Source of the DNA: a virus
Direction: 5' to 3' (one strand)
DNA length: 22,205 nucleotides
Virus record (IMG/VR): IMGVR_UViG_3300047457_000483
Location: 1 to 22,205 of that record
Made by a program: the position numbers and the translations under genes. Shown here piece by piece: positions 3,078-22,170 of this stretch. Numbering within the stretch: the stretch's first letter is position 1; every line of letters begins with the position of its first letter. A model generated the notes under the pieces. That model was given only the letters and a program-made list of their open reading frames with translations, did no database searches and was not told the origin of the DNA.

Positions 3078-6000
3078 ATGGCAACGAAACCAACCTTTGA
3101 TTGCGGTACTTTCGGACCGGGGTCAGGTCGCCCAAGCGACCCACCTGATGGAGGAGATCGTCACGATCCTTGGGATCCAGATAGAACTGACCCAAGGAAC
3201 GATTTCCCTGGTCCAGAACCATATGACCCCGATCCAAAAGATCCGTGTGAAACCACAGTACAAGTTTGGACTTGTTATTCTGTTTCTTATAATCCAGCTT
3301 TAATTTTACCCTGTGTTATAAATGGTCAACTTTGTAAATGCATTTATAATTCTCAAGGTGTTTGTGCTGACCGAACAGAAGTAATTCCTTGTGATGAACC
3401 TTATATATTTGGACCTAATGAGTATAGAACTAAAGATGAGTGTTTAGCTAATTGTCCAAATGAGTATGATGTAGATTGTAATACTACTCCCCCCGATCCA
3501 GGAGATCCTAGTACTCCAGGTCCAGGGACCCTTGATCCTAGTTCGGCCACAGATCCACAAGGTCCTAAATATACTATATTTTACGAGTGCAAGCAAAATC
3601 AAGCTCCAGGAACTAGATATTTATGTAATCCTCCTCCTAATTGGCCTCCTCCAGGATGCGTTCCACCTTGCCCATTCCCAAATAATTTAAATTGTTATTG
3701 TGAGGTAACTTCTGTAGGAACTTGTAGTCCTAAATTAATTAGGTATTATGGGCAAACTCCTCCAGATCCAGCTAGTTATGGAATGTATCCCAGTGATGCT
3801 GCTTGTCAGGCAAATTGTCCTAATGAAATTAGAGTTAATTGCATTCCTGATAACCAAACAGATATTGGAACTGGAACTTCTGCCACACCAGAACAGTGTT
3901 CGTATACTTATTGGAAGTGTAGTTTGCTAAACATTCCAGGAATACCTTATCCATGTCCAGGTCCAGGAGGGGTATGTTTATGTTATCCATTACAGACAAG
4001 ACTTTGCACTTCTGCGGTTAGAATTGTTGAATGCCCCGTAGGTCCAGTTGATTATGGACAAGGCGAATATCCAACAAAAGGTGAATGTGAAATAGATCAG
4101 GTTTTTTGTCAACCTACTATTACTCAGGATTGTGATGTTACCGGGGTTGGTGATTCTACTACTCCTGGAGGACCTCTCCAAAGACCTCCAAACGGAGGAG
4201 GTGGAGGAGGAGGAATAACCCCTACTGGACCTTCATCTGGAGCAAGAGGTCTTACCCCCGCAGGGGGAGGAGGTGGTGGAGGAATAACCCCCACTGGACC
4301 TTCATCTGGAGCAAGAGGTCTTACCCCAACAGGAGGAGGAGGAGGTCCAGGAGGAGGAATAACCCCAGGCCCACAGAGCGGTGCAGCAGGGGGACTTACT
4401 AGAAGAAATGGTGGTGGAGTGCCTACAGGACCAAGCACTGGTGTTAGAAATCCTTCAAATACATATGCATTTACTTTCTATCGCTGTGAACCAGTTCAAG
4501 GGCCAGTAACACCTTTTGATGTTGCTTGCCCAATTCCCCCTAATGCTCCAACAGGAACAACTTGTTTTAAAACTTATTTAGGGGATAGAAATTGTAAATC
4601 AGTAACAGTGCAAGTTCCAGTAGGTAGTAATTATTTTGTTTCTCCTACAAATAATGAGTACCTAACAATGGCAGATTGTTTAGCGGCTTGTACTCCTTTG
4701 TATACACCTTGTGAGTGTGATTATCCTACTCCTATTGGTGATTTAAATACCCCAGGTTCTCCAACATCTACGGAACCTAATGGTGGGGGTAATAATAACG
4801 GTGGGGGTTCCACAACACCTCCATTTACTAAGACTAAAACAGACGGGTCAACTACTCCAGGTGGATTAGTTTTAAGAATTCCTGGAACAGGCGGGGGAAC
4901 AAGTCCTGGAAATGGTTTCCCAACTTTAGATCCAATAGCTAGAGTATTTCCAAAAATAAGAAGAACTAAAGACAGAAGGGTATTTAATAACGGAGCAAGT
5001 CAACTTCCTTCCAATGATAATAACACAGATCCTCCAATAGTAACTAGAGTTTATAACAAGTGTGTTAAACAAGCTCCCGTACCCCCTCGTTATGTTAACT
5101 GCCAAAACCCAAATAGCGGACAATTTGATTGTAAATGCTATCTGATAAAAGAAGCAAAGTGTATTCAAGAAGTAGTAACACAAAATCCAGACGGGTCCTT
5201 CCCCCCTCCAACTCCTCCTTATGTTACATACTCAATTAACAACAATAACGCTTGCTTAAATAATGTTTGTTTCCAAGAAGTGAGTCCTTGTATTTCAGGA
5301 CCTCAAACACCTGAAATTTTTACAGGGCCTTCTGAAGATGATAATAGTCCCGAGCCGGATTCAGGAATTCCTTTTGATGCTACAGAAGTTAATCCAAATG
5401 ATCCGTACCAAGATCCATATGGTCAATTAGTTCTTACTGAATCTGTTGGTCCTGATACTTTAGCATTAAATCAAGATCCTGATACATCATTCCTATTTAG
5501 AAATCCCAGATCTTTCGAGGGGAACATTGTGGATAATCCTGGATATTATACTGATATTTTAGCACCGAGGATCCATAAAAGTATTCTATATGTTTTAGAG
5601 AATAGCAATAGGTCTTCTAATTGGGATACTAAACCAATTTCTGATATTACAGATATTAATATAGAAAAAAGTCTTAATAGAGAATTCTTAGAAACTCTTA
5701 AACTAATTAAGAGGTGGGATTCTAAAGAAATTGATTATAAGATTTTTATTAGAGTAATTAAATCAAAACTTCTAACTGGAGAAATGGATTCAATTGACCC
5801 TGTATATTACAGAAGACTTGCGGCACAAGAAGATTTAAAGATAGTCATACCAAGAAAAACACAAAATAAAGATTTAAACATATTAAAAGCTTTTGCGTAT
5901 TTAGAGAAAAAGATGATTCCTTTGGATCCAAACGAAGATCCAGGAAGTAGAAATGCAGCTTTAGTCCCTCTGTACAAAGTATTAGCAACAGATGTTGAAA

Positions 6001-7277
6001 AAGCTCTCCCTCTTTTCGTAGACGGAGAAGAAAGAAAAGTATTTATTAATGATAATGATATAGTTATAGGTAGAGCAGGATTACGAATTTCTGATGGTGA
6101 TTATGTTACATTAGGAAGTGGATCTACCTCAAGAAGACTGTATCTAAGAACAGAAAAAGATCATGCTTATACAATTACCGCATTCGATAAGGCAGTAGCT
6201 CTAGATCTATTAAATGGAAATCCTTATGTAACTATTTCTGCATCTAGTAGCTACTCTAGTATGGTTGAGTTTACTTCGGATCTCAGTGCATTGAGACAAG
6301 ATGTGTATTTCTTAAAACTTAATACTTCTACAATTAATACTTCTAGGAAAACACCTTACTTAGATGCTACTGTGGCTAAGTATGATTTAATGCCAACCGT
6401 AACAGATGCAGATGTATCAGCAATTAATGAATATGTTAAATTTAAACTTAATCATAAAGTTTTCCATATTCAATATGATGATATGATGATTGATCATATG
6501 TTACAAAGTAGTGCTATTACTCTTTCACAAGATGATATTAGGTTTGACGGCCATGCTAGAAAAACTAATAAACAAGTTCCAATCTTAGTAAGACAGCTTC
6601 CTTGGTATATCTTAGTATTCCCTACAGATAAGAATGAATTAAATAGTCTGCTTTCAAGATCTAAAATAGAGACTTTTAACACCTCTATAGTTCAAAGATC
6701 TTTAAATTATATTTTATCTGTAAATAGAGATATTTATAATCCGCTAGGAAGAGCAAGTTCTTTTATGGATATAAATTTAAACTATCCAGAAAAGAATGTT
6801 TTTGATGAGTACGATTTTGAAAGTAGAAAGATAATTTTTAATAAAGATAATCCAATATTTAAGACTGGGTATAAAAATGGTCAGCCAACTCCTAGGAAGA
6901 AAACTGGGCTAAGAATATCTTACGAGATAGTTAATGAATTAAATAATAATTATGTTTTAGATAGGGGGTTAACTACCTTTGACCTGTTCTCACGAATGAA
7001 TTTCTCCCAGTTTAATCAATTTGCAACTGACCTTGGGGAAGAAACCTATAATCAAATTAAACAAGGAGTATTTGGAGCAGCAGTATATTCTGTAACAAAA
7101 TACTCTGGGGATCCCTACATATTTAAAACAGCTTTGAAAAGCAGAAGGTCCACCGCCACAGAGGACACTTACACTCAAATTAAAGCTACTAACACAGGTT
7201 ATTATGTTCAGCCTCCTACTAGGACAGAGCAGCCTAGACTTATCATAAGAAGTAATCAGAGACCATTAAGAGGATGA
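3078..7277 (+). CDS. giant Cys-rich modular virion protein, 1399 aa, probable baseplate/tail-tip protein
   Basis: The protein is sharply two-part. Residues 1-56 are Pro/Asp-rich. Residues about 57-738 hold five Cys-rich modules (about 57-134, 165-255, 274-352, 462-547, 657-738). Each has about eight cysteines in a recurring order: a Tyr-x-Cys entry, a Cys-x-Cys centre, then a Y-x-T/S-x-x-x-C-x-x-x-C-P-like end such as DECLANCPNE or AACQANCPNE. Linkers are Pro- or Gly-rich and include a 23-residue Gly-rich tandem repeat at about 374-432. Residues from about 775 to the end look globular, with mixed hydrophobic and charged residues, and contain no cysteine. The gene starts 6 nt after its neighbour with a poor Shine-Dalgarno and stops 1 nt before the PAAR gene. 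Position suggests a baseplate or tip role, perhaps cell-surface contact; I recognise no named family. Confidence 0.75.
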   Translation: MATKPTFDCGTFGPGSGRPSDPPDGGDRHDPWDPDRTDPRNDFPGPEPYDPDPKDPCETTVQVWTCYSVSYNPALILPCVINGQLCKCIYNSQGVCADRTEVIPCDEPYIFGPNEYRTKDECLANCPNEYDVDCNTTPPDPGDPSTPGPGTLDPSSATDPQGPKYTIFYECKQNQAPGTRYLCNPPPNWPPPGCVPPCPFPNNLNCYCEVTSVGTCSPKLIRYYGQTPPDPASYGMYPSDAACQANCPNEIRVNCIPDNQTDIGTGTSATPEQCSYTYWKCSLLNIPGIPYPCPGPGGVCLCYPLQTRLCTSAVRIVECPVGPVDYGQGEYPTKGECEIDQVFCQPTITQDCDVTGVGDSTTPGGPLQRPPNGGGGGGGITPTGPSSGARGLTPAGGGGGGGITPTGPSSGARGLTPTGGGGGPGGGITPGPQSGAAGGLTRRNGGGVPTGPSTGVRNPSNTYAFTFYRCEPVQGPVTPFDVACPIPPNAPTGTTCFKTYLGDRNCKSVTVQVPVGSNYFVSPTNNEYLTMADCLAACTPLYTPCECDYPTPIGDLNTPGSPTSTEPNGGGNNNGGGSTTPPFTKTKTDGSTTPGGLVLRIPGTGGGTSPGNGFPTLDPIARVFPKIRRTKDRRVFNNGASQLPSNDNNTDPPIVTRVYNKCVKQAPVPPRYVNCQNPNSGQFDCKCYLIKEAKCIQEVVTQNPDGSFPPPTPPYVTYSINNNNACLNNVCFQEVSPCISGPQTPEIFTGPSEDDNSPEPDSGIPFDATEVNPNDPYQDPYGQLVLTESVGPDTLALNQDPDTSFLFRNPRSFEGNIVDNPGYYTDILAPRIHKSILYVLENSNRSSNWDTKPISDITDINIEKSLNREFLETLKLIKRWDSKEIDYKIFIRVIKSKLLTGEMDSIDPVYYRRLAAQEDLKIVIPRKTQNKDLNILKAFAYLEKKMIPLDPNEDPGSRNAALVPLYKVLATDVEKALPLFVDGEERKVFINDNDIVIGRAGLRISDGDYVTLGSGSTSRRLYLRTEKDHAYTITAFDKAVALDLLNGNPYVTISASSSYSSMVEFTSDLSALRQDVYFLKLNTSTINTSRKTPYLDATVAKYDLMPTVTDADVSAINEYVKFKLNHKVFHIQYDDMMIDHMLQSSAITLSQDDIRFDGHARKTNKQVPILVRQLPWYILVFPTDKNELNSLLSRSKIETFNTSIVQRSLNYILSVNRDIYNPLGRASSFMDINLNYPEKNVFDEYDFESRKIIFNKDNPIFKTGYKNGQPTPRKKTGLRISYEIVNELNNNYVLDRGLTTFDLFSRMNFSQFNQFATDLGEETYNQIKQGVFGAAVYSVTKYSGDPYIFKTALKSRRSTATEDTYTQIKATNTGYYVQPPTRTEQPRLIIRSNQRPLRG
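4212..4365 (+). repeat. Gly-rich coding tandem repeat, 69-nt period
   Basis: Two nearly identical 69-nt units begin at 4212 and 4281, with a third degenerate start at 4356. Each encodes the segment GITPTGPSSGARGLTP plus a poly-Gly run. The repeat lies between Cys-rich modules 3 and 4 of the 1399-aa protein. It is in frame (23 codons), so copy-number change would lengthen or shorten a flexible linker without breaking the gene. Confidence 0.9.
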
Positions 7278-7278
7278 T

Positions 7279-7572
7279 ATGCCAAATATAATGAGAATTA
7301 ATGATTTAGGTTTTGCCCCTAACTATAGTCCAACTTATCCACAAATTTTAAATGGAATAGATTCTGTTAGAGTAGAAGGCTCTCCTGTAGCTATTGTGGG
7401 AAGTGTATATCAAAACCACAAAAAAGGAGATAATAAACATAACTTAAAAATAGCGTCTACTGGTAGTGGATCGGTTAGAGCTAAAGGAATTCCTATTCAC
7501 AGGGAAGGGGATTCAATGTCTTGCAACCATGTTGCTCAAGCTGGAGCAAAAAGGACACGGGCAGGGGGATAA
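7279..7572 (+). CDS. PAAR-domain tail spike tip protein (T4 gp5.4-like)
   Basis: This 97-residue protein matches the PAAR family in length and motif layout; T4 gp5.4 is also 97 aa. PAAR proteins fold into a cone with a zinc ion near the apex and cap the central spike of contractile tails, helping it pierce the host outer membrane. Candidate zinc ligands are His47, His54, His74, Cys82 and His84, the last two in the segment GDSMSCNHVAQAG, typical of PAAR C-terminal halves. The Gly-rich C-terminus (KRTRAGG) is also typical. The Shine-Dalgarno AGAGGA lies just upstream, and the start follows the previous stop by 1 nt, so it is translationally linked to the Cys-rich giant protein. The central spike protein it would sit on (gp5/VgrG-like) is not in the window. 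Confidence 0.9.
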   Translation: MPNIMRINDLGFAPNYSPTYPQILNGIDSVRVEGSPVAIVGSVYQNHKKGDNKHNLKIASTGSGSVRAKGIPIHREGDSMSCNHVAQAGAKRTRAGG

Positions 7573-9049: not shown

Positions 9050-10045
9050 ATGTTATTAACAGATGTTTTTATTATTGAAAATTTAGAAGTTCTTCAGGAG
9101 AGCACTGGAAATAAGACCATGAAAGTTCGTGGTATTTTCCAAAGAGCGGAAGAATCAAATAACAATGGTAGAGTTTACCCAACTCCTGTTTTAACAAAAC
9201 AAGTTGATAAGCTTCAATCAATGATATCTGAAAGAAGACTTTGTGGAGAGTTAGATCACCCACAAAATGATTCAGTAAAACTTTCAAATGCTTCACACCT
9301 AATTACCAAATTGTACATGAAAGGCAATGAAGTTTTTGGTGAAGCTGAAATACTAAACACCCCAGCAGGGCTTACTGCTAAAGCTTTAATTAATGGAGGT
9401 GTGAAGATTGGAATTTCTTCTAGAGGAATGGGTACTTTATCTGAAGACTCCAAAGGACATAAGATAGTGAACGAAGACTTCAATCTTATAACATTTGATT
9501 TGGTTGCTGATCCTTCAACAAGAGGAGCTTATCCAGCCTTGTCAGAATCCAAGACTAGATCTTTTGTAAATGAATCAACAACTAAGCTTCAAAAAGAAGA
9601 GAACTTTGTAACCTTATTAAAGCAAAAGTTTAATGAAGGATATGAAAACTTCATGCATGAGATGAAGCATAAAGGCTCAAAGAAATTAAAAGGTAAGCAG
9701 CATAAGTTAGATGTAAACAAGAATGGAAAACTTGATTCTGCTGATTTCAAAATGCTTCGTTCAAAGCAAACAAATGAGATGAAAGTAACTTCAAAACCCT
9801 CCGCTAAAGAGTTACTTAAGTTAGCTAAGGCAGAGATTTCCCACGCTAAGATGGCTAAGAAAGCTGGAACTTCTCTAACAAAATTAAACAAAGCTGTAAA
9901 GAAGCAGGACTCTAAGAATGCTGATGTTTCAAAGTTTTCTAAGGACGAAAAGAAGCATAGCAAGATGGCAGCATCTACTAAGAAGACTTTACAAAAATTA
10001 AAGTCTGCTGAAGAAAAAGAACACGAAATGATGGAGAACGACTGA
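9050..10045 (+). CDS. 21: prohead core protease (T4 gp21-like) with basic EF-hand-bearing C-terminal extension
   Basis: Serine protease that matures the prohead by cutting scaffold and capsid precursors. Residues 1-170 match T4-type gp21: GELDHP holds the probable catalytic His70, GISSRG holds the probable catalytic Ser123 or Ser124, and FDLVADPS (149-156) is a conserved downstream block. The total of 331 residues exceeds T4 gp21 (about 212) because of a Lys-rich extension after about residue 175. The extension carries DVNKNGKLDSAD (221-232), a textbook EF-hand loop (ligand positions 1, 3, 5 and 12, with Gly at 6). Candidate self-cleavage sites are LQE|ST (15-19) and LSE|SK (164-168), the second falling exactly between protease and extension. 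The stop shares one base with the next start (TGATG). Confidence 0.92.
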   Translation: MLLTDVFIIENLEVLQESTGNKTMKVRGIFQRAEESNNNGRVYPTPVLTKQVDKLQSMISERRLCGELDHPQNDSVKLSNASHLITKLYMKGNEVFGEAEILNTPAGLTAKALINGGVKIGISSRGMGTLSEDSKGHKIVNEDFNLITFDLVADPSTRGAYPALSESKTRSFVNESTTKLQKEENFVTLLKQKFNEGYENFMHEMKHKGSKKLKGKQHKLDVNKNGKLDSADFKMLRSKQTNEMKVTSKPSAKELLKLAKAEISHAKMAKKAGTSLTKLNKAVKKQDSKNADVSKFSKDEKKHSKMAASTKKTLQKLKSAEEKEHEMMEND

Positions 10046-10880: not shown

Positions 10881-11525
10881 ATGCAAAAGAAATTAACTAA
10901 TATTGTAAACCTTCTTCCTGAAGGTTTGGACGAATCAACGGTAGAAAAGATTTTTGAATTAGTCGATTCTACAATTAACGAGCAAGTTGAGCAAAGAGTT
11001 AGTTTGCTTGAAGCTAAAGTTAATGCTTATTTAAGAACAAAAATAGATGAATTAAAGCAGCACGCACTAAACGAACTCTCAGAAGAGAATGAAGTTTATC
11101 GTAATGCTCGTCTATTCGAATCAGTTAGAACTTTAATGGCTCTAGAGATGACCTCTGCTGACGAAAATAATTTAGTCAGTGAGATGAAGAACTCTCAAAA
11201 GGAGCTTGATGAAGAAAACACAGTTTTAGCCCAGCAACTATCAAAACTAATAGAAGAAAACGAAAAGTTGCAGAATACTGTTAAAGTTTTAACAAATAAA
11301 GTAAACCTTTCTGAGTCAGAAAATAAGAAGCTCAAGAAAGGGAATATGCGTTTAGCGGAGGAAGTAGAAAACTTACAAGCGACAATAGATGAGCCTTTCG
11401 CTTCATCTGAAAAAGCTGTAATGATTTCTGAAGCTAATCGTGAAGTTAAAGAAAAGAATGATGTGAATAACACATTCTTATCAGAGGCAATGATGAGATT
11501 AATGCCTTTTCAAGCCAAAAACTAA
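10881..11525 (+). CDS. 22: prohead scaffold core protein (T4 gp22-like)
   Basis: A 214-residue, almost wholly alpha-helical, Glu/Lys/Leu/Asn-rich protein with long heptad-like stretches (about residues 95-170), as expected for the coiled-coil scaffold that fills the prohead before DNA packaging. It sits directly between gp21 and gp23 as in T4. The N-terminus contains LLPEGLDESTVEKIFELVD, a pattern I associate with gp22 proteins of marine T4-like phages. Candidate gp21 cut sites near the C-terminus are ISE|AN (182-186) and LSE|AM (200-204), the latter resembling the known T4 gp23 cleavage context (LTE|A). T4 gp22 is degraded by gp21 to small peptides. The Shine-Dalgarno AAAGGA lies at 10866-10871. 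It ends 7 nt before gp23. Confidence 0.88.
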   Translation: MQKKLTNIVNLLPEGLDESTVEKIFELVDSTINEQVEQRVSLLEAKVNAYLRTKIDELKQHALNELSEENEVYRNARLFESVRTLMALEMTSADENNLVSEMKNSQKELDEENTVLAQQLSKLIEENEKLQNTVKVLTNKVNLSESENKKLKKGNMRLAEEVENLQATIDEPFASSEKAVMISEANREVKEKNDVNNTFLSEAMMRLMPFQAKN

Positions 11526-11532
11526 GGAATAA

Positions 11533-13140
11533 ATGCTTATGGATTCAATGTATGTACATGACGATCAATTAGTACAGAAGTGGGGACCTGTCCTCGAAGG
11601 CATTAAGACTGATTATGCCAAGAGAGTTACAGCCCAACTTCTCGAAAACCAAGCCAAAGCAATCGTTGAGCAGAGAGTCAACGAAGATGCTCCCACACAA
11701 GTAGGTAACCTTGGAACCTTTGCCAAGTTTGCATTCCCACTCGTTCGTAGAGTCTATCCTGAACTGATAGCCTCTAACTTCGTTGGTGTGCAACCAATGC
11801 AAGGTCCAGTTTCTCAAGTCTTCTACCTAGGACACACTCGTAGATATGGTGCAACTTACCAGACCATGTACAGCAAGTTCAACCTTACTCCTTATGGTAA
11901 CTTCACCTCAGGAATAGGTTCAATTTCTGGTACATCTGGTGGAAAAGGAACTTTTGCTGGAGGATCAACTAACGGCCTTGATGGTGATGCTGCTGCTACT
12001 GGTTTTGATGTTAGCAATGTTTTAAACTTCTCAGGATTTGGATCAGCTAACGCTTCAGGCTATGGTTGGCCTAGCTCAACCATGGGTGGTAAGATTGCTG
12101 CTTTCCCAAATGCTAATGCAACAATGGGTTGGGTTGTAAGTGCTGGTGAAGCTCTCTCTGGTGCTGGTATCCCTGAACTCAGCATTCACATTGAGCAGGA
12201 AGCTGTTGTCTCAAGAACCCGTAAGATGAGAGCCTTGTGGACCCTTGAGGCTTCACAAGATCTCAAGGCTTACCACAACCTTGATCTAGAGCAGGAGTTA
12301 ACCACTCTACTCTCCAAGGAACTCCAACTTGAGATTGACCGCGAGCTAATCGAAGATCTCCGTATGATTGCATACGGATTCACAAGAACCAACACTATCG
12401 CTCAATTAGGTGGAGCATCACTTAAGAACATGGATAGCGATTACCTAACCTTAGGTGATTTCGAAGGTTTAGCAAACCCAACCACTGCTGCAACTGGAAC
12501 CTTCACTCCAAGCGCATTCGCATACAACTTACCAACATCAGTTCCTGGATCAGCAAACAGAATCTCAAATGTGTTTGTTTGCGATCTAACTAACCCAGGT
12601 GTAGGTTTAAGCCCCCGCCATGTTGGTGAAGTTTACGCTAACCTCTTAGCAGTGATTAACCTAGCTTCACAGGATATCTATAAGACAACCTTAAGAGGCC
12701 CTGGTAGCTGGCTACTCACTTCACCCCTAGTTGCTTCACTCCTAGAGAGTGCTGCCAAGCTCGAAGGTGGAGTTGCAAGAGAAGACGGCCCAACCAATAT
12801 TGGCAATGCTGGTATTAGCTTCAAGGGCAAGTTCATGGGACGCTATGACCTTTATGTTGACCCAATGTATCCCGATGACGAGATCATGGTTGGCTATAAG
12901 GGAGCTAATGCTATGGACGCTGGATTTATCTATGCTCCATACATCCCACTCCAACAATTACCCACCATCACTGATCCTCAGACCTTCCAGCCCAGAAAAG
13001 GCATCTTAACCAGATACGGTAAGGTCCAAGTTGAGCCTAGCTCAAGATTCTACAGAATCATCAGACTGATTGGATCAACTTCACAGTACCTCTTCGTGAA
13101 TGGTTCTAAGAATAACAGCTTCTTAGGAACTGCAATCTGA
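11533..13140 (+). CDS. 23: major capsid protein (T4 gp23-like)
   Basis: A 535-residue protein close in length to T4 gp23 (521). Family hallmarks include the N-terminal QLLENQAKA segment, LVRRVYPELIASNFVGVQPM followed by GPVSQVFYL, the TLEASQDLKAYHNLDLEQEL segment, and the C-terminal block RYGKVQVEPSSRFYRIIRLIGS. The HK97-fold subunit builds the head lattice after gp21 removes an N-terminal propeptide; candidate cuts are IVE|Q (after residue 46) or VNE|D (after residue 51). Two in-frame ATGs (11533, 11539) flank the spacing window from AAGGA at 11524-11528 (4 or 10 nt), so the start is uncertain by two codons. C-ending codons are visibly commoner than in neighbouring genes, as expected for the most abundant virion protein. 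Two hairpins follow the stop. Confidence 0.97.
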   Translation: MLMDSMYVHDDQLVQKWGPVLEGIKTDYAKRVTAQLLENQAKAIVEQRVNEDAPTQVGNLGTFAKFAFPLVRRVYPELIASNFVGVQPMQGPVSQVFYLGHTRRYGATYQTMYSKFNLTPYGNFTSGIGSISGTSGGKGTFAGGSTNGLDGDAAATGFDVSNVLNFSGFGSANASGYGWPSSTMGGKIAAFPNANATMGWVVSAGEALSGAGIPELSIHIEQEAVVSRTRKMRALWTLEASQDLKAYHNLDLEQELTTLLSKELQLEIDRELIEDLRMIAYGFTRTNTIAQLGGASLKNMDSDYLTLGDFEGLANPTTAATGTFTPSAFAYNLPTSVPGSANRISNVFVCDLTNPGVGLSPRHVGEVYANLLAVINLASQDIYKTTLRGPGSWLLTSPLVASLLESAAKLEGGVAREDGPTNIGNAGISFKGKFMGRYDLYVDPMYPDDEIMVGYKGANAMDAGFIYAPYIPLQQLPTITDPQTFQPRKGILTRYGKVQVEPSSRFYRIIRLIGSTSQYLFVNGSKNNSFLGTAI

Positions 13141-13225: not shown

Positions 13226-13426
13226 ATGTTTAAATATAGATCCAAGTGCAGATGGAATTTACTTCTTTATATAAATAATTCAATAGTTGAGATTCGACCT
13301 GACGAAGAGTTTTTATCGTCTCATATTGTAGAATCAAAATACTTAGAATTAAAAGAGGAACCTGAAGCCCCCAAAAAGATAAAGAAACAAAAGGAAGATA
13401 TAAATGAGTCTCTCAATAATAGCTAA
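13226..13426 (+). CDS. small protein of unknown function upstream of gp13
   Basis: A 66-residue protein with a good ribosome site (TAGGA at 13215-13219, 6 nt before the ATG) and a 23-nt overlap with the gp13-like gene, indicating translational coupling. The first 45 residues look beta-rich (WNLLLYINNSIVEIRPDEEF) and the C-terminus is Lys/Glu-rich and probably helical or disordered. Similar short proteins occur between capsid and neck genes in some marine T4-like phages, to my recollection, but have no known function. The overlap and start site support it as real. Confidence 0.65.
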   Translation: MFKYRSKCRWNLLLYINNSIVEIRPDEEFLSSHIVESKYLELKEEPEAPKKIKKQKEDINESLNNS

Positions 13427-14279
13427 ACCAAGAATATTAAGTTATGGGGATACTTTTGGTAAGTATGGGGGAACTTTATTAACCGATACTATTCCTGACG
13501 GAGAAATAAAGTTAGACAATCTTAATACTTTAACTCTGGTTGATGGAGTAGAATTTAATAATTTTGAACTTTCTGTTAGGGATTATGTGTTAGCTAGATT
13601 GGGTCACCCTGTCGTTAGAGTAGAACTAACTGCTTTTCAATTAAAGAGTGCGATAGAGGAATCAATTAGTAAGTTCTCGTACCATGCACCTTTTTGGAAT
13701 CGTCAGTTTGCAGCATTTGACGCTTCAGCAGGAATTAATCAGTATGAACTTCCTGCTCATATAGCTCATAACTTAAGCTATGTAAACTATAGAAAAACTC
13801 TATTAACAATTAACCAAGCAGCCCATGATTTGGAATATGATTTCTTTATAAAATATTTCCAAGACAACTTTATTCATGGAGATTTCAGACTTGGGGATTT
13901 CTTCTTATTACAACAACATCTGGAACTTGCAAGAAAAGTTTTAGGTCAAGAAGGTGCTTTTGATTTAGTTAATGGAAAAATACTTCAACTATACCCTGTG
14001 CCTTCTGTTAATAATGAGAGAGTAATTTTAGAGTACAGAGCCGTGGATTCAAACACCATACATCCAGCATATAGAAACTGGATCCAAAAGTATGCTTTGG
14101 CTATAGCCAAAGGAATTCTAGGAGAGATTCGTGGTAAGTATAGCTCGTTGCCTTCCCCAGGCGGTGGTGCTTCTTTAAATGGGGCCGCATTGAGTCAAGC
14201 CAGTGTGCAAGAAATAAAACAGCTTGAGGAGGACTTAAGAAGTGAAATTGAAGAACCTCCAACATTTACAATGTACTAA
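13404..14279 (+). CDS. 13: neck protein (T4 gp13-like head completion protein)
   Basis: A 291-residue protein (T4 gp13: 309) that would attach below the portal to close the filled head and join the tail. Supporting signs are the overall length, the mixed helical and beta composition, and a C-terminal segment SLPSPGGGASLNGAALSQAS followed by VQEIKQLEEDLRSEIE. This resembles the 'PGPGG-L-G-LL-G-I-LEEL' C-terminal helix region of gp13-type neck proteins. The N-terminal part includes YVLARLGHPVVRVELTAFQL followed by KSAIEESISKF, an amphipathic helix pattern common in connector proteins. AAGGAAG serves as ribosome site. The gene lies directly before the two basic proteins and gp14. In T4 gene 13 is far upstream of gene 23; here it follows it. 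Confidence 0.75.
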   Translation: MSLSIIAKPRILSYGDTFGKYGGTLLTDTIPDGEIKLDNLNTLTLVDGVEFNNFELSVRDYVLARLGHPVVRVELTAFQLKSAIEESISKFSYHAPFWNRQFAAFDASAGINQYELPAHIAHNLSYVNYRKTLLTINQAAHDLEYDFFIKYFQDNFIHGDFRLGDFFLLQQHLELARKVLGQEGAFDLVNGKILQLYPVPSVNNERVILEYRAVDSNTIHPAYRNWIQKYALAIAKGILGEIRGKYSSLPSPGGGASLNGAALSQASVQEIKQLEEDLRSEIEEPPTFTMY

Positions 14280-14288
14280 GGAGTCTTT

Positions 14289-14591
14289 ATGCCATTAAAA
14301 TCAGGATCAAGCCAAAAAACTGTAAGTTCAAACATCAAAGAACTGATGCACGCTTATAAGAAAAAAGGAAAGATTGGAACTAGCACTCCAAAAGGAAGTA
14401 AGGCTGCTCAAAAACAAGCAGTTGCTATCGCTTTATCCAAAGCTAGAAAATCAATCAAAGAAGGTAAACTTTGTGCAAAAGGGAAATCTGCTGCGAAAAG
14501 AAAATTCGATGTTTACCCATCCGCTTATGCCAATATGTACGCCTCTGCTGTCTGTTCAGGCAAAGTTAAGCCAGGAGGAAAGAAGAAGTGA
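14289..14591 (+). CDS. small basic paired-cysteine protein
   Basis: A 100-residue, very basic protein. Residues 1-55 contain SSNIKELMHAYKKKGKIG followed by AAQKQAVAIALSKARKS, a pattern I associate with the DUF6496 family of short basic proteins (from memory; a profile search would decide). Residues 60-90 read KLCAKGKSAAKRKFDVYPSA followed by YANMYASAVC, a module with Cys62 and Cys89 that I recall from marine phages and large algal viruses. The C-terminus is KVKPGGKKK. It follows the gp13-like gene by 9 nt with an AAGGAG ribosome site and overlaps the next gene by GTGA. An internal, DNA-binding head role is plausible from charge and location only. Confidence 0.75.
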   Translation: MPLKSGSSQKTVSSNIKELMHAYKKKGKIGTSTPKGSKAAQKQAVAIALSKARKSIKEGKLCAKGKSAAKRKFDVYPSAYANMYASAVCSGKVKPGGKKK

Positions 14592-15241
14592 ACATAAACG
14601 AAGATCTTAGAAAGTGGGTTGCTGAAAAATGGGTTGACATTGGAGCACCTAAAAAAGGTGGGGGATTCAAACCATGCGGAAGACAAAAAGGTGAGAAGCG
14701 CAAAGGATATCCTAAGTGTGTTCCTCTTGCTAAAGCTCATTCTATGTCTAAATCCCAAAGAAGATCTGCGGTAAAAAGAAAAAGAGCAGCAGGAAATACT
14801 GGCCCAAAACCAACCAATGTTGCTACATTCAAAAAGAAAAAAATTCAAGAAGCTTGTTGGAAAGGATATAAAGCAAAAGGTATGAAAAAGAAAAATGGAA
14901 AAATGGTTCCTAATTGTGTTCCAATAACGGAATCATATATTAATATATTTATGTCAATTACAGAAGCTAGTCCAGCTTGGCAAAGAAGTGAGGGTAAAGA
15001 TCCTAAAGGTGGATTGAATAGAAAAGGTATAGCTTCTTACAGAGCAGCTAATCCAGGCTCAAAACTTTCCATGGCTGTTACTACCAAGCCTTCTAAACTT
15101 AAAAAGGGCTCTAAAGCGGCTAATAGACGCAAGTCATTCTGTGCAAGAATGGGGGGCATGAAGAAGAGATTAACTTCAGCTAAAACTGCTAAGGATCCTA
15201 ATAGCAGAATAAACAAAGCACTTCGTAAGTGGAATTGTTAA
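14588..15241 (+). CDS. basic three-module paired-cysteine protein with candidate gp21 cleavage sites
   Basis: A 217-residue protein starting with GTG in a GTGA overlap. Module 1 (1-88) has LRKWVAEKWVDIGAPKKGGG, Cys30, YPKCVP (Cys44) and MSKSQRRSAVKRKRAAGN. Module 2 (89-115) is a short CWKGYKAKGMKKKNGKMVPN unit ending in CVP (Cys90, Cys110). Module 3 (127-217) runs from PAWQRSEGKDPKGGLNRKG to SFCARMGGMKKRL and DPNSRINKALRKWNC (Cys185, Cys217), which I believe is the DUF6321 pattern. The junctions carry IQE|A (86-89), ITE|S (113-116) and ITE|A (124-127), all fitting the (L/I)-x-E cleavage rule of T4 gp21. This suggests a head precursor cut into small basic peptides, an inference from motif and context. 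Similar modules occur singly in other phages and in giant viruses, to my recollection. Confidence 0.8.
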   Translation: MNINEDLRKWVAEKWVDIGAPKKGGGFKPCGRQKGEKRKGYPKCVPLAKAHSMSKSQRRSAVKRKRAAGNTGPKPTNVATFKKKKIQEACWKGYKAKGMKKKNGKMVPNCVPITESYINIFMSITEASPAWQRSEGKDPKGGLNRKGIASYRAANPGSKLSMAVTTKPSKLKKGSKAANRRKSFCARMGGMKKRLTSAKTAKDPNSRINKALRKWNC

Positions 15242-15244
15242 TAA

Positions 15245-15817
15245 ATGAAAGATATTTCAAAAAATTTCCATATCACTACTAAAATGCCTGAGATTCCTGA
15301 TATTGATCAGGGAGAATCAGAATTAAACCTATTTGATCAGAATAATCCTGATATTAATTTATTTAATTTAGTGGATGATGAAATTATAAAACTCTCAGGA
15401 AGTAAAATGTATTTATTCAAATACAATCAAACTGAGGATTATGATCCTGTTTATATGGAAGCGAGAAATAAACCTGTATCAAAAATTCCAATAATTGTAC
15501 ACGGGCATTATGAACCTACAACCTTAGATCAATCTTTAACAAATTTTGGAATAGAAATTCAAAACGATCAATTATTTACATTTAATAAATCTTACATTCA
15601 AAAAAAATTAGGAAGACCTTTGATTCCTGGAGATATTATTAAGCCTTTTTTCCAGGATCAAAAGTATGAAATTTTTCAAGTGAATGAAGATTCCTTTGAA
15701 GCTTATGGAATTTATCATTTAGTTTGCCATGCTAGAATTCTTCGTGATTCTACTCAAATTCAAGATACTCCTTTAAAAGATGTATCTGATCCTTTAGGTG
15801 GGTATGATAACAGATGA
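15245..15817 (+). CDS. 14: neck protein (T4 gp14-like)
   Basis: A 190-residue protein (T4 gp14: 256). Residues about 100-155 (LTNFGIEIQNDQLFTFNKSY through RPLIPGDIIKPFF and YEIFQVNED) align by eye with T4 gp14's [20 protein letters not shown], then EGDLIYFP and LFEINWVEP. This region forms the core beta-barrel of the neck subunit that sits between gp13 and the tail. The N-terminal 50 residues are acidic and Asn/Asp-rich, and the T4 C-terminal extension is lacking. It begins 3 nt after the basic three-module gene and overlaps gp15 by 4 nt (ATGA), keeping the T4 order 14-15. Confidence 0.75.
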   Translation: MKDISKNFHITTKMPEIPDIDQGESELNLFDQNNPDINLFNLVDDEIIKLSGSKMYLFKYNQTEDYDPVYMEARNKPVSKIPIIVHGHYEPTTLDQSLTNFGIEIQNDQLFTFNKSYIQKKLGRPLIPGDIIKPFFQDQKYEIFQVNEDSFEAYGIYHLVCHARILRDSTQIQDTPLKDVSDPLGGYDNR

Positions 15818-16563
15818 CATCAGGAATAGTGCCAGTTTATATTAACTCCGAGATTCTTGATTCTACTCTTGATTTTGATTCTATCAAAAGTAGAAGCTCC
15901 TCCTATAAGACTAGGGAAGCTTATATCCGAGCCGAGATAATGAGAATGACAAAGCAGGAATCAAGGATTTCTGGTTTGTATAAGCAACTGTTACGATCAA
16001 TAATAAACCATTTTTCTGATTTAGTTTGTGTAGATTCAGAAGCAAAAGTTATAGAAGTTAGATGTATTTTTGCAAATCCTGAAAGAGTTGTTGCTAGTTT
16101 AAAACAAGAAACTAATATCATACTTCCAATAATATCAATATCACAAGATAGCTCTCAAACAGATCCATCTAGAGGTAGGTATAAATCACATCTAGTACAT
16201 GAAGTAATGTACGACAGAGAAAAGAACAGAGCTACTAGAGTTCTAAGTATCGCACCAGTTCCAGTGGATATTACATATAGTGTTAACCTTTGGTGCAAAT
16301 ACAGAGAAGATCTAGATCAGCTAACAGAACAAGTTAGATTAAAATTTAATCCTAATGCTGATTTAGTTATTGAAAATCACGATTTAGTTGTAGCCTTCTT
16401 GGAGGAGGCAGATTCAATTGAGGGGGCAGCTTCCGAGGTAGGGGACAGAGAAGATCGCATACTTAAAAAAACATTTAAAGTTAATGTTAAAACTTATATC
16501 AATAACCCTAAGTTTTTATTAACTTCTACTGGGGCAATAGAAAGAATTATTTTGGATTTTTAA
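15814..16563 (+). CDS. 15: tail terminator / sheath-stabilising protein (T4 gp15-like)
   Basis: A 249-residue protein (T4 gp15: 272) that would form a hexameric ring on top of the finished tail, lock the last sheath ring and bind the neck. The diagnostic stretch is ITYSVNLWCKYREDLDQLTE followed by QVRLKFNPNADL, matching T4 gp15's YELSIFTRYEDDMFQIVEQI followed by LPYFQP. Upstream ILPIISIS corresponds to the T4 ILPRINLH region. The ending, EDRILKKTFKVNVKTYI, corresponds to the family's SLTFEVNGWMYP. Translation is coupled to gp14 (ATGA overlap). In T4 genes 16 and 17 (terminase) come next; here the tail sheath follows after one small gene. Confidence 0.82.
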   Translation: MTSGIVPVYINSEILDSTLDFDSIKSRSSSYKTREAYIRAEIMRMTKQESRISGLYKQLLRSIINHFSDLVCVDSEAKVIEVRCIFANPERVVASLKQETNIILPIISISQDSSQTDPSRGRYKSHLVHEVMYDREKNRATRVLSIAPVPVDITYSVNLWCKYREDLDQLTEQVRLKFNPNADLVIENHDLVVAFLEEADSIEGAASEVGDREDRILKKTFKVNVKTYINNPKFLLTSTGAIERIILDF

Positions 16564-16793: not shown

Positions 16794-16809
16794 TAGGAGA
16801 TAAAATATG
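16794..16809 (+). promoter_or_regulatory. strong ribosome binding site of gp18
   Basis: TAGGAG (16794-16799), a 7-nt AT spacer and ATG at 16807. The same TAGGAGATAAA element is used before gp19 at 18971, indicating a shared high-efficiency translation start for the two most abundant tail proteins. Confidence 0.85.
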
Positions 16810-18969
16810 CCAAATTTCGTTAGCCCAGGTGTATATGTAATTGAGAAAGACATATCAGAGTACACGCCAGCACTCAATAGCTCTATAGTAGGTATTGTTG
16901 GCTTTGCTTCAAAAGGTCCTACCAATAAAGCCACTTTAATAACTAACCAAGCTGATCTAATCAGAATCTTCGGTGAACCAAGTGAAGCTATTTATGGACA
17001 AGGGTTAGAGGCTGCTTTAGAAATCCTAGAGACAACTAATGCTCTTTATTTCATAAGAGCAGTTTCTGAAACTGCTTCTGATACTAAGGATGCATCAGCG
17101 GTAATTCCTTTTGGAGCTTGCGCTGCGGTAGCTGTTTCTGGACCTTCTACATCTGGAACTGGATTCGGTATTGACAGAGCACTGTATTTAAAAATACAAG
17201 TATATGATAACGCTGGAGTTGCACAATATCCTTCACCTAAACAATTTTCAATTCCTGCTGGAACAACCTCGCTTACTTCTTCTCAGTCTCAAGCTTTAAG
17301 AAAAGTAATTGGGGGGCAATTAGATACAGATGTTGTTGGTGTTTTTGATAATAATGAAACAACTACAGGTTTAGGTTTGTCCGGCCATATTGTAAGTAAG
17401 TTTGCTGGATCTGGATCATACATGACTGTTTCAGCATATTCTGATTCTACTTTTACAACAGGATTAGCTGTGCTTCAACCTGTGGTGGCTGTTTCTGCTG
17501 TGGGGGGAACTTATGAAGCATATAATGTAAGTGCTGTAGCTGATACCTCCACCTTAACTGTGTATGGTGCAACCTTCAATTCTACAGGAACTTCTTCACT
17601 TACTTATTTAATAGAATCTCTGTATGCAGGAGCAGGGTATAATGCTGGAACCACTGATTCAGGGGACACTAGCGGAAACTCCATAACCATTAGAGGAATT
17701 GGTGGTGGAAATTTCTTTGTTGATATAAATGATAAAGGTTCAGTAATAGAAAACTTTAAAGCAGCTTTATTTTCTAGTGGAGCCTTTGTTGAAGATGTTA
17801 TTAACACAGGAGAAACAGAAACTACATCAGATTATATTAAAGGTAATCTGTATAAGGGAGAGGCTGACATTGCCACCGTTACAAAACTAAATAACTTTGC
17901 ATCACAAGTTAGTAGCTTGTTTGCAACTGGAGATCTTTTTGGAACTCAAGGTGGAGGTGTCGCTGGAACTAGAGCAACTTGGGCTAGATATGTTAAGCCA
18001 ATCGCTGGAACCTATAACCTCACAGGAGGAACAAATGGAATTCCAACAGCAGAAGCAGATAAAGCTACTGCTCTGATTGGAAATGCAGCCACAGAACCTA
18101 AGACGGGTATCTACGCACTTGATGATGATACTTTAAATGTTGGCATAGCTTTGGTTCCCGGAGTTTATAATCAAAATGTTCAAAATGCACTAATAACTTT
18201 AGCAGAAACAACTCAAAACTTCTTAGCTTTAGTTGCTCCTCCTTATGGAATTGGAACCGTGCAAGATGCTATTGATTGGACAAATGGTAAATCATCAAGC
18301 ACTGCTGGAGCTAGAAGTTCTGCTATCAATAGTTCTTACGCTGCTGTCTACTTCCCACACATTAAAGTGTTTAGTACCTTTGACGGAATGGATCGTTGGT
18401 ATGACCCAACAATCTTCGCTGCAAGACAAATGGCATACACTGATAGTGTTTCAGAGCCCTGGTTTGCTCCCGCTGGCTATGTCAGAGGTAGATTAACTAA
18501 GCCCACTGATGTTGAAGTTAGACTATCGCAAGGTGATAGAGATGTTATGTACAGTGGTGGAAATGTGGTTAACCCAATCGTTAACTTCCCACAGCAAGGC
18601 ATAACAATCTTTGGTCAAAGAACAACTCAAAGAGCCTCAACTGCCTTAGATAGAATTAACATTCGTAGATTAATGATCTACATTCGTAAGATTATTTTAG
18701 CATCAACTAGAACCCTTGTATTCGAACCAAATGATGAGTTTACTTGGGCAAGAGTTGAAAATCTACTGAATCCATTCTTAGACGATATCCGTGCAAGAAG
18801 GGGTATAACTGAATTCAAGGTTATCTGTGACTCAACCACAAATACACCTGTAAGAATTGATCGTAACGAAATGTGGTGTAGAGTTCTTATTAAGCCAACA
18901 AAGACCGCCGAAATCATAGTCTTTGAACTCAATCTAACTAATCAATCGGCTGATTTAGGTACAATCTAA
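16807..18969 (+). CDS. 18: contractile tail sheath protein (T4 gp18-like)
   Basis: A 720-residue protein (T4 gp18: 659). The N-terminus is classic sheath: MPNFVSPGVYVIEKDIS followed by IVGIVGFASKGPTNKATLIT and a FGEPSE segment. The C-terminal domain contains WYDPTIFAARQMAYTD, PWFAPAGYVRGRL, FPQQGITIFGQRTTQ, RASTALDRINIRRLMIYIRK and LVFEPNDEFTWARVENLLNP, the conserved core that forms the contractile lattice. The middle (about residues 105-390) is Ser/Thr/Gly-rich and corresponds to the variable, outward-facing domains. The protein polymerises around the gp19 tube and contracts on infection. Codons in the C-terminal third appear richer in C endings than the middle, which could reflect conserved versus recently diverged parts. 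Confidence 0.97.
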   Translation: MPNFVSPGVYVIEKDISEYTPALNSSIVGIVGFASKGPTNKATLITNQADLIRIFGEPSEAIYGQGLEAALEILETTNALYFIRAVSETASDTKDASAVIPFGACAAVAVSGPSTSGTGFGIDRALYLKIQVYDNAGVAQYPSPKQFSIPAGTTSLTSSQSQALRKVIGGQLDTDVVGVFDNNETTTGLGLSGHIVSKFAGSGSYMTVSAYSDSTFTTGLAVLQPVVAVSAVGGTYEAYNVSAVADTSTLTVYGATFNSTGTSSLTYLIESLYAGAGYNAGTTDSGDTSGNSITIRGIGGGNFFVDINDKGSVIENFKAALFSSGAFVEDVINTGETETTSDYIKGNLYKGEADIATVTKLNNFASQVSSLFATGDLFGTQGGGVAGTRATWARYVKPIAGTYNLTGGTNGIPTAEADKATALIGNAATEPKTGIYALDDDTLNVGIALVPGVYNQNVQNALITLAETTQNFLALVAPPYGIGTVQDAIDWTNGKSSSTAGARSSAINSSYAAVYFPHIKVFSTFDGMDRWYDPTIFAARQMAYTDSVSEPWFAPAGYVRGRLTKPTDVEVRLSQGDRDVMYSGGNVVNPIVNFPQQGITIFGQRTTQRASTALDRINIRRLMIYIRKIILASTRTLVFEPNDEFTWARVENLLNPFLDDIRARRGITEFKVICDSTTNTPVRIDRNEMWCRVLIKPTKTAEIIVFELNLTNQSADLGTI

Positions 18970-18970
18970 T

Positions 18971-18985
18971 TAGGAGATAAATATG
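18971..18985 (+). promoter_or_regulatory. strong ribosome binding site of gp19
   Basis: TAGGAG (18971-18976), a 6-nt spacer and ATG at 18983. It is nearly identical to the gp18 site. It lies 1 nt past the gp18 stop, so the two genes share one message. Confidence 0.85.
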
Positions 18986-19561
18986 ACTAATATTTATAAA
19001 ACAGAAAGAGGCACTGTAGCAGACAATAAACTTCCTAAAGTTTCTACAGGACTCGACTCAGTAAAAACATTCGCATGGGAAATTCACTTCAACATTCCTA
19101 ATGCACCTGATGGCGCAAAGACTGAACAGTTGGTTTTGGCTGCTAGATCTGTAAAAGGAATAGGATATGAAGTTGAGCAAATTGAAGTTCAAAGAGTAAA
19201 CGACAAGCTGTACTATCCTGGAAGAGCCAAGATGGATACTCTTGAGGTTGTCTTCGATAACCAATACTTATCCAAAAATGGCGCGGCTTTATACCAGTAC
19301 ATGAAAAGAATCTACAATCCAATTACAGGAGAAATTCTAACTGCTCCTGGTGTCGCTGGTGGTTTTAAGATTCCTAGTGTTAAAGTTATTCAGCTTAAGA
19401 ATGATATGACCCCATTTAGCGAGTCAACTCTATATGGAGTTTTCCCATTATCATTCAAACCAGCCGAATTAAATTACGACACACAATCAGCTTTCCATAC
19501 CATTACCATGACCTTCAGATATGATTACATGAGCCATGTTAATGAAGGTGGAATACCATAA
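18983..19561 (+). CDS. 19: tail tube protein (T4 gp19-like)
   Basis: A 192-residue protein (T4 gp19: 163) that stacks as hexamers to form the rigid inner tube through which DNA passes. Family signs include the position directly after the sheath gene and the basic-acidic beta pattern YEVEQIEVQRVNDKLYYPGR, which corresponds to the 'V--G-KYYPGR' loop of tube proteins. Others are a following TLEVVFDNQYL segment, a helix (LYQYMKRIYNPITGEI) and the terminal strands FHTITMTFRYDYMSH. It is the last gene before a strong terminator. Confidence 0.93.
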   Translation: MTNIYKTERGTVADNKLPKVSTGLDSVKTFAWEIHFNIPNAPDGAKTEQLVLAARSVKGIGYEVEQIEVQRVNDKLYYPGRAKMDTLEVVFDNQYLSKNGAALYQYMKRIYNPITGEILTAPGVAGGFKIPSVKVIQLKNDMTPFSESTLYGVFPLSFKPAELNYDTQSAFHTITMTFRYDYMSHVNEGGIP

Positions 19562-19641: not shown

Positions 19642-22170
19642 ATGAATTATTTCCAAGAACTACTTGAGAGTTATGATAGGTTAAAGAAAAGAACCTTTAA
19701 GTTAGTTTATATTAATGAGGCTGTAGCTTTGCCTCCTGAAGGGGTAAGCCAAGCAAATGATTATATTACTAAAGCCTTAAGTTCCCCAGAAGAAAAATTA
19801 CAAGTAGCTGGGTTGAATCTTCAAGTTTATTTTTCTAATGATAAACAGGAAGTAATGATGGCTGGAGATGGGGTTGGTGCATATCCAAAAGCAATAACTC
19901 AAAACAAACAACCCGCCCAAGGAGTTCAGGGGCAGCGTGGACAAAACTACAGCCAGTTTGTGAGGATGGTCTCTGGGCAAGGGCCACAAGCCCAGCAAGG
20001 CTCACAGGAAGGGCAACAGCCTTCACAAGAGCAAATCCAGACACCTGAACAAGCATACCAAGAAGCAATTACTCCAGGTTCAAAAGAATATTTATTACCT
20101 TTAGAAAAGCCAATAGAACCTGAACTACAAAGAGAATTATTTTTTAGAGCTTACGAACTTAAAAAATTGTGCAAACCTTTAGAAAGAGATGGATCTATTC
20201 CTGATTTTTGTGATGAACTTCAACTAACAGGAAAATCATTACCTGGAACTTTAGGTATAGGATCTAGTCAGAAGTCGTTCGAAAAGAAAGTTTCACAAGG
20301 AACTTCATTTGTTCGTAATGCAGACACAGGATTAATAGAAAGAACGGATTCCCTTTCCTTAGATCAAAGAAGGAAAGCAGTTGATGGGTGGAAAGATTTA
20401 ACACAAGTTTTAGTTAATCCAGAACTTGTTGATTGTAATAAAGCATTCAATAATATTAGAATTAAGGAGCGGGGTGGAAGGTCAACCAAGATTGTTTTTG
20501 GATCTACAGATGAAGGGTTGGATAAATCTGTTGTTACAACTGCGGGAGTTTTAGAATTAACTGCTATAAGTAAATTAAAGCAACACTGTAAAAAGTCTTT
20601 TAAGCCAGTAGATTTAACTTTATCAGTGGGAAATAAATATACAGTAAGAGGAACTTTTTTTGAAAAATGCACGAACTTTGCTTTTAGATTTAAATCAGTT
20701 CAAAAGTTACAAGATCGTTGTGCCTCTGGAGACAAGAAAGCTTGTTCAATAGCTCAAACAAGAAGAAGAAATTTAGCGGAAGATATTGTTCTTCATACTG
20801 AAAAAGTTAGATCAAACGCAATAACAACACAACAATCTGAAGGCATTGTTACCACTCCTGAATATGCCGCAATAATGGACTTATTAAAAGAGCATCAATC
20901 TTTTGATACTCCAGCAATTCTTGAATTCTTATCTAGAGAGAATGCGTTCGCCTCTGTTTTAGTTAATACTAATTTCCCAAATGCTTTAGGAGTTATTGAC
21001 TCCTCTTTAAATCCCAAAACAGGTAATAGAGCAGACAGAAAAGTATTATACTTAGATGAGCAATCCGCATTAGCTGATATGTCTAAGTTAGGTGGATCAG
21101 TAACTCCAGTAGTAATCGGGGAATATTTATCTAATTGTGCCACAGATGATAGTAACCCTGTATGTTCAGAACTTAGTGATATAATGGAAGACTACAAGTT
21201 GAAAGAGTCTTCTGTAATTTATCTTGGTGATTTAGGACTTAAGAGAGTTACCTCTTTGGAAGGGGGATTAACAGCGGGATCTTTTAGTGGGGCAAAAAGA
21301 CTAAACGATTTATCAAAGAGAGTGCCTCTAAAGAAAATTCAAAATGGTGATAGAATAGAAGATAATTATATATCTAAAATAGATGAGATTCAACAAATAA
21401 CTCCTGGAGATCAAAGAGATAGGAGTATGCGAGATGTGGAAGACAAGATTGATAATACATTATCTAATTTTACATCTCAACTATCTGCAAAAATAATAAA
21501 TGTTCCTGGACAAGGTGGACAAAAAGCTTTAGTAGATTTAAACAAGCCTACTAAAGTAGTTGAGTATCTTAGAAAAGTTTTGAGAGAAAAAGTTAGTAAC
21601 GACATTCTAAAGAATAGTTCCTTAGATAAATTATTAAATTCAGATAATTATAGAGGGAGAGAATCTAGAGAAGAGTCTGTAGGAACATTGATGAGGTATA
21701 TCCGTAATCATATGTATAGAAAATCTTTGCAAGAGTCTCCTGAAGCAACAACGGATGCTTTACTAAGAAGACTGTATATTTGTGCTGGAAATAACACAGA
21801 ACTTATACAAAGCATGGTTGATGACAGCGGTAAAAATTTAACATTCAACCATAATCAAGTATTAAGAAACTTGGAGCAAGCTAAAAAAGATAAGAGGCTT
21901 AGAATAGAAGTAAAAGATTCTTTAGTTAGATATTATGTATCTGATACTCAAGGTAATGAGATAAAGTATGCAGAGCTTGGAGAAGATGTGAATATAACTT
22001 ATAACGGGGAATCTACTCACAAGTTTTCAGCAGAGTTTACAACTGATGCGGCTAGATCAGCAGTTATTATAAACGAAGAAAAGAAAAATTCTGAGCTTGA
22101 TAAAGAAAAACTTATAGAAGAATTTATTAAGATACAACAAAAATTACTAGAATGTTTTAATTCAAAGTAA
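19642..22170 (+). CDS. large protein of unknown function, possible internal head protein, 842 aa
   Basis: Complete protein starting just after a terminator, with no Shine-Dalgarno. The N-terminus MNYFQELLESYDRLKKR resembles the T4 capsid-targeting propeptide (MKTYQEFIAE then A): an aromatic, Gln-Glu, two hydrophobics, then Glu before a small residue. LLE|S (7-10) and INE|A (24-27) fit the gp21 cleavage rule. Residues about 85-150 are a Gln/Gly-rich linker (GQGPQAQQGSQEGQQPSQEQ). The rest looks globular and helical, with several Cys in the middle (LKKLCKPLERD to CASGDKKACSI) and a Lys/Glu-rich C-terminus. In T4 the portal gene 20 follows gene 19; this protein shows no portal features I recognise. 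It could instead be a tail or baseplate protein. Confidence 0.7.
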   Translation: MNYFQELLESYDRLKKRTFKLVYINEAVALPPEGVSQANDYITKALSSPEEKLQVAGLNLQVYFSNDKQEVMMAGDGVGAYPKAITQNKQPAQGVQGQRGQNYSQFVRMVSGQGPQAQQGSQEGQQPSQEQIQTPEQAYQEAITPGSKEYLLPLEKPIEPELQRELFFRAYELKKLCKPLERDGSIPDFCDELQLTGKSLPGTLGIGSSQKSFEKKVSQGTSFVRNADTGLIERTDSLSLDQRRKAVDGWKDLTQVLVNPELVDCNKAFNNIRIKERGGRSTKIVFGSTDEGLDKSVVTTAGVLELTAISKLKQHCKKSFKPVDLTLSVGNKYTVRGTFFEKCTNFAFRFKSVQKLQDRCASGDKKACSIAQTRRRNLAEDIVLHTEKVRSNAITTQQSEGIVTTPEYAAIMDLLKEHQSFDTPAILEFLSRENAFASVLVNTNFPNALGVIDSSLNPKTGNRADRKVLYLDEQSALADMSKLGGSVTPVVIGEYLSNCATDDSNPVCSELSDIMEDYKLKESSVIYLGDLGLKRVTSLEGGLTAGSFSGAKRLNDLSKRVPLKKIQNGDRIEDNYISKIDEIQQITPGDQRDRSMRDVEDKIDNTLSNFTSQLSAKIINVPGQGGQKALVDLNKPTKVVEYLRKVLREKVSNDILKNSSLDKLLNSDNYRGRESREESVGTLMRYIRNHMYRKSLQESPEATTDALLRRLYICAGNNTELIQSMVDDSGKNLTFNHNQVLRNLEQAKKDKRLRIEVKDSLVRYYVSDTQGNEIKYAELGEDVNITYNGESTHKFSAEFTTDAARSAVIINEEKKNSELDKEKLIEEFIKIQQKLLECFNSK

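Follow-up and report, generated by a model that had tools for sequence, protein, structure and literature searches.

What is the function of two genes, set among the head and neck genes of a T4-like phage, whose small basic products fall into modules with a candidate cleavage site of the prohead protease at every border? The question is raised by the window analyzed here, which is the whole 22,205-base viral record IMGVR_UViG_3300047457_000483. The phage is T4-like and encodes gp21 (prohead protease, 9050-10045, + strand, Peptidase_S77 E 5.8e-26), a gp22-like core protein (10881-11525), gp23 (11533-13140), a gp13-like adaptor (13404-14279), gp15 (15814-16563), gp18 (16807-18969), and gp19 (18983-19561). 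Both basic-protein genes sit between the gp13-like gene and gp15, as plus-strand open reading frames at 14289-14591 (100 aa) and 14588-15241 (217 aa), exactly where a preliminary description of this DNA had placed them. They overlap by 4 nt, such that the GTG start of the second spans the TGA stop of the first, with AGGAGG just 5' of this GTG.

Profile searches of the modules, which the preliminary description had proposed, resolve the region into four units that we call V, A, B, and C. The 100-aa basic protein (phrog_27331) consists of a DUF6496-like N-terminal part (PF20106; 23.0 bits, just below the cut-off of 24) followed by module V (14463..14588, predicted mature G59-K100, 42 aa, net +10, two Cys). 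The 217-aa precursor (DUF6321, phrog_727, phrog_23735) is, as had been claimed, a chain of three basic modules with two cysteines each. These are module A (14603..14851, predicted mature D6-E88, 83 aa, net +20, C30/C44), module B (14852..14932, predicted mature A89-E115, 27 aa, net +6, C90/C110), and module C (14966..15238, predicted mature A127-C217, 91 aa, net +22, C185/C217), all on the plus strand. Module C is DUF6321 (PF19846; 63.4 bits against a cut-off of 28.5, residues 136-215). Between B and C lies a hydrophobic 11-aa linker, SYINIFMSITE (14933..14965, + strand), which is predicted to be excised. The cysteine pairs of both proteins, including C62/C89 of the 100-aa protein, are as previously listed. 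Modules A, C, and V were aligned apart for conservation; the pairs of A and of C are invariant throughout the aligned homologues, and the cysteines of V are kept only within its own subfamily. A full-length joint alignment laid module A over module C, and was judged to be an artefact.

The published gp21 cleavage motif is L/I-X-E (PMC9026906), and I-x-E stands directly before four of the four modules. The predicted sites, all on the plus strand, are I56-K57-E58/G59 before module V (14454..14462, from the sequence and from kin that read VNE/G, VIE/A, IIE/G, MIE/G, and LIE/K), I3-N4-E5/D6 before module A (14594..14602, from kin that read LNE/D, VNE/D, FVE/D, FIE/D, LVE/D, and LRE/D), I86-Q87-E88/A89 before module B (14843..14851), I113-T114-E115/S116 at the end of module B (14924..14932), and I124-T125-E126/A127 before module C (14957..14965). 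The preliminary description had pointed out IQE/A (86-89), ITE/S (113-116), and ITE/A (124-127), all of which are present; INE/D (residues 3-6 of the 217-aa protein) and IKE/G (residues 56-59 of the 100-aa protein) are additions to that list. It had also estimated that the motif should be rare by chance, and this is the case: the composition of the 217-aa protein predicts 0.09 occurrences of [LI]xE[AS], against the three that are present. All four strict [LI]xE motifs in this protein are at module borders, as is one of the two in the 100-aa protein (the exception is IKE at 16-18); a match to a looser motif, VAE at 11-13, lies inside module A, away from any border. Over 200,000 shuffles of the residues of both proteins, the motif came to precede two of the four modules at most.

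Homologues were gathered from IMG/VR and phage genomes. A tblastn search with a set of marker proteins, from which the modules themselves were excluded, sorted their loci into T4-like and podophage-type, and the T4-like label was added where the record carried gp21 or gp23. We scored a loose motif, hydrophobic-x-Glu within 0-3 residues of a module start. In T4-like proteins it occurs at 54 of 80 module starts, where 4.1 would be expected if all positions are considered and 6.4 if only linkers are; the other 26 lack it. The two classes differ sharply at each module, T4-like against podophage-type, with 8/11 versus 0/51 for V, 16/24 versus 1/57 for A, 10/16 versus 0/7 for B, and 20/26 versus 0/69 for C, where it should be noted that some loci are fragments, that the T4-labelled locus L080 looks mislabelled, and that p-values are indicative only because members of a class are related. 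Fused proteins number 31 in T4-like loci and none in podophage-type loci (0/288, all single-module frames), the absence of gp21 from short contigs of the latter type being deduced from the phage type. In podophages, the modules are placed among portal, scaffold, and capsid genes. Upstream of the P1 Glu, strong constraint falls at P3 only: of the 72 distinct stretches compared, 71% have L, I, V, or M at this position, against a background of 15%. Where module C and Peptidase_S77 occur in the same IMG/VR record, hydrophobic-x-Glu stands just before module C in nine cases out of nine.

Loss of the sites from the borders in homologues, which the preliminary description had named as counting against cleavage, was looked for and is not what we see; the linkers diverge. 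One example is the close relative L223, a locus that was found with gp21 alone and not with the modules. It has the same two genes, with INE/D, IQE/A, MTE/S (at the end of module B), IME/A, and IKE/G, and its linker SYINTFLLIME has diverged from the SYINIFMSITE of the window with its I-x-E-type end kept. In the S-SM2 homologue (L202 3114-5240), a DUF192 domain (E 4e-24) separates modules, which means that the chain can take up entire globular domains.

Stand-alone V proteins read M-[AG]-KLC and fused ones mostly E-[GA]-KLC; likewise, M-[SG]-LRKW is seen in many stand-alone A genes, and fused A is mostly E-D-LRKW. The P1 Glu of fused V and A thus occupies the position of the start Met in the stand-alone genes, and cutting there would yield the same start as Met removal.

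The proposed cutter is encoded about 4.2 kb upstream of the module genes. The window gp21 shares with T4 the conserved His70 and Ser123/124 of the catalytic region, and carries LSE/S where T4 gp21 carries ITE/S; the window gp23 has IVE aligned with the LTE of T4. The C-terminal tail of gp21 (9050-10045), which follows LSE/S, is long and basic and includes a dockerin/EF-hand-like stretch, KLKGKQHKLDVNKNGKLDSADF. Relatives of the window phage carry module B within the gp21 C-terminal tail, past the predicted self-cleavage site (L224 7965-9071; L226 7977-8831; L228 7977-9074), which fits the earlier suggestion that the modules are mobile. The gp22-like core protein (10881-11525) contains seven [LI]xE[ASG] motifs, with 0.7 expected for the [AS] form.

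Taken together, we consider it likely that the two genes encode tandem precursors of small basic internal head proteins that are cut by gp21. The precursors would enter the prohead core, where the phage's own gp21 would cut after Ile-x-Glu at every module border. This would free V as a piece of 42 aa, A of 83 aa, B of 27 aa, and C of 91 aa, and remove the 11-aa linker. The pieces would then remain in the head with the DNA, or be injected with it, like the internal proteins of T4. The preliminary description had suggested a precursor cut by the prohead protease into small peptides packaged with DNA; what stands of this is that the sites are conserved at the borders and nearly confined to T4-like loci, and that gp21 is encoded. 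Cleavage, packaging of the pieces, their association with DNA, and any role after injection are all inferred. We also lean, somewhat less firmly, toward a broader interpretation, in which the protease-cut polyprotein of T4-like aquatic phages would be the counterpart of other phages' operon of small head proteins, with a P1 Glu at the place of each initiator Met, and in which a kit of modules may be shuffled among precursors, leader-bearing single genes, and the gp21 tail.

Some evidence comes from virions. ORF137 of S-CREM2 (108049-109521) coincides with a homologue ending in module C, and was detected in the proteome of CsCl-purified virions with four unique peptides at 4.1% coverage (PMC10665884). 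This supports association with the virion, in a form, cut or uncut, that these data do not distinguish. The homologues in S-B43, RN05-S, and RB11-B are labelled "structural protein" in their records. For S-SZBM1, the published protein table does not list the product of the DUF6321 gene, SSZBM1_192. Two other proteins considered as possible homologues, S-SCSM1 ORF92 (a "virion protein") and S-SZBM1_194 (L222 10253-12376), lack the modules and were rejected. The latter, 707 aa long and adjoining gp16, contains mid-protein an internal TYREFIAE/G, which is almost the targeting sequence of T4 IPIII.

Could gp21 cut the precursors and most of the fragments nevertheless exit the head, such that the modules serve assembly only? 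Sacrificial core proteins of this kind have a precedent in T4 gp22 and gp67: most of the several fragments into which T4 core proteins are cut leave the head (PMC9026906), the annotation of gp67 describes an internal-peptide precursor, and the low coverage of S-CREM2 ORF137 would also fit. We regard this as unlikely, however. In podophage-type loci the modules are complete stand-alone proteins that keep their cysteines, and the pieces should thus have a role of their own. In addition, the gp22-like core protein of the window is acidic (net -12), whereas the pieces are strongly basic.

It is less likely again that the protein stays whole, in which case the modules would be basic domains joined in a protein of the virion or the infected cell, and hydrophobic-x-Glu would serve as a structural linker or helix cap. 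Cleavage is, after all, deduced from the sequence, and the linkers of cyanophage homologues are Glu-rich, making the motif commoner there than on average. Yet the linker-only control still leaves 54 motifs seen against 6.4 expected, only P3 and P1 are constrained, and the motif follows the type of phage. A different kind of explanation is that genes once separate have fused and that the motif is what remains of their ribosome-binding sites, given that E and K abound in the translated stretches 5' of the stand-alone genes. Such a remnant would be expected to read G, E, R, or K, and not to have the aliphatic P3 observed, and the codons of the five window sites (ATC AAA GAA, ATA AAC GAA, ATT CAA GAA, ATA ACG GAA, and ATT ACA GAA) are without AGGAG; the idea was rejected on these codons, and we consider it very improbable.

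Returning to cleavage by gp21 into internal head proteins, most likely the window precursor would work like IPI, IPII, and IPIII of T4, a likeness in mode of action that need not imply homology. Those are likewise small internal proteins with the gp21 motif L/I-X-E at the mature start. No T4 IP family appears among the Pfam, PHROGs, and NCBIfam matches of the window proteins, but the T4 internal proteins are too diverse for this result to speak against homology. Each T4 protein has one leader and one product, whereas the window genes have several products in tandem, with internal sites. In T4, the ten N-terminal residues of IPIII are enough to direct a protein to the head interior; residues 4 and 7 matter for targeting and residues 8 and 10 matter for processing, and exchange of the P1 Glu for Asp is reported to block cutting of IPIII (PMC9026906). 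IPIII starts MKTYQEFIAE/A and IPI starts MKTFKEFTSTTTPVSTITE/A, with the cut positions placed by the motif. Single-module relatives of the window proteins have leaders that resemble that of IPIII (such as MKTFKQYLEE/, MLTFQEFITE/, and MKSFKQHLGE/); in L014, L113, and L107, for example, the protein opens with a targeting leader of the T4 type, which is 10-19 residues long and closes with the cut site. The window precursor has no leader of this kind but only MNINE/, which at five residues is too short for a T4-type targeting leader.

A close likeness is to the T4-GC119/gp114 proteins of cyanophages (phrog_727, with DUF6321 at the C-terminus), in which modules A, B, and C are likewise chained together; the A-B-C order ending in DUF6321 recurs in S-RIM8, S-H25, S-B43, and others. 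These proteins have site-like motifs at most borders and are encoded close to neck and terminase genes. They differ in often being longer (134-939 aa), with more linkers than the window protein, and in that their gene lies between gp16 and gp17, whereas that of the window lies between the gp13-like gene and gp15. In the open-access literature searched, we found no description of T4-GC119 as a cut precursor and no mention of DUF6321. T4 gp67 and gp22 are similar as head proteins cut at several L/I-X-E sites, but they are core proteins that are mostly degraded and lost, without conserved modules that exist as separate genes. The polyvalent phage proteins (PMC5512222) are comparable in being multi-domain, predicted to be packaged, and freed of their domains by proteolysis; there, however, embedded peptidase domains do the cutting, whereas here the capsid protease would release small basic modules. 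What sets the window genes apart is that a tandem precursor unites parts that have genes of their own elsewhere. If our interpretation is correct, a polyprotein strategy exists for the internal proteins of a DNA phage, and the "hypothetical" module C proteins can be assigned to the interior of the head, with maturation by the capsid protease and with mature ends predicted to the residue.

Module C is carried by more than 500 phage records, mostly of cyanophages, with pelagiphages as well. Its structural model is helical (mean pLDDT 83), and that of module A is of low confidence (pLDDT 63). Significant matches of the module C model in a viral structure library are other DUF6321-type or unnamed phage proteins. 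The sole PDB match to this model, TrmK (Foldseek E 7; VIA-align Z 3.3), was taken as noise. Profile searches against solved structures gave no match for C and V, and for A only matches with E 0.58 or worse. The preliminary description had placed such modules in giant algal viruses too, and this receives indirect support: DUF5872 (PF19197), at E up to 1, matches 30 of 46 relatives of module A and 11 of 33 relatives of module V, the window members being unmatched, and the proteins listed for an algal giant virus include one of DUF5872 (PMC12085832). A search of plasmids for a cellular origin of the modules gave no match. Five matches to module A occur in bacterial or archaeal genome bins (L231-L235), on contigs with an HTVC027P-type portal; these contigs are podophage, and the bins therefore contain phage sequence.

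Elsewhere in the window, an 842-aa protein (19642-22170) with 11 Cys starts MNYFQELLE/S, a leader resembling a targeting sequence, and has INE/A at 24; it had no match in Pfam or PHROGs. A 1399-aa protein (3078-7277), for which no family match was found, has 47 Cys and Gly/Pro-rich repeats. Its gene is adjoined by that of a 97-aa PAAR-motif protein (7279-7572), a spike tip.
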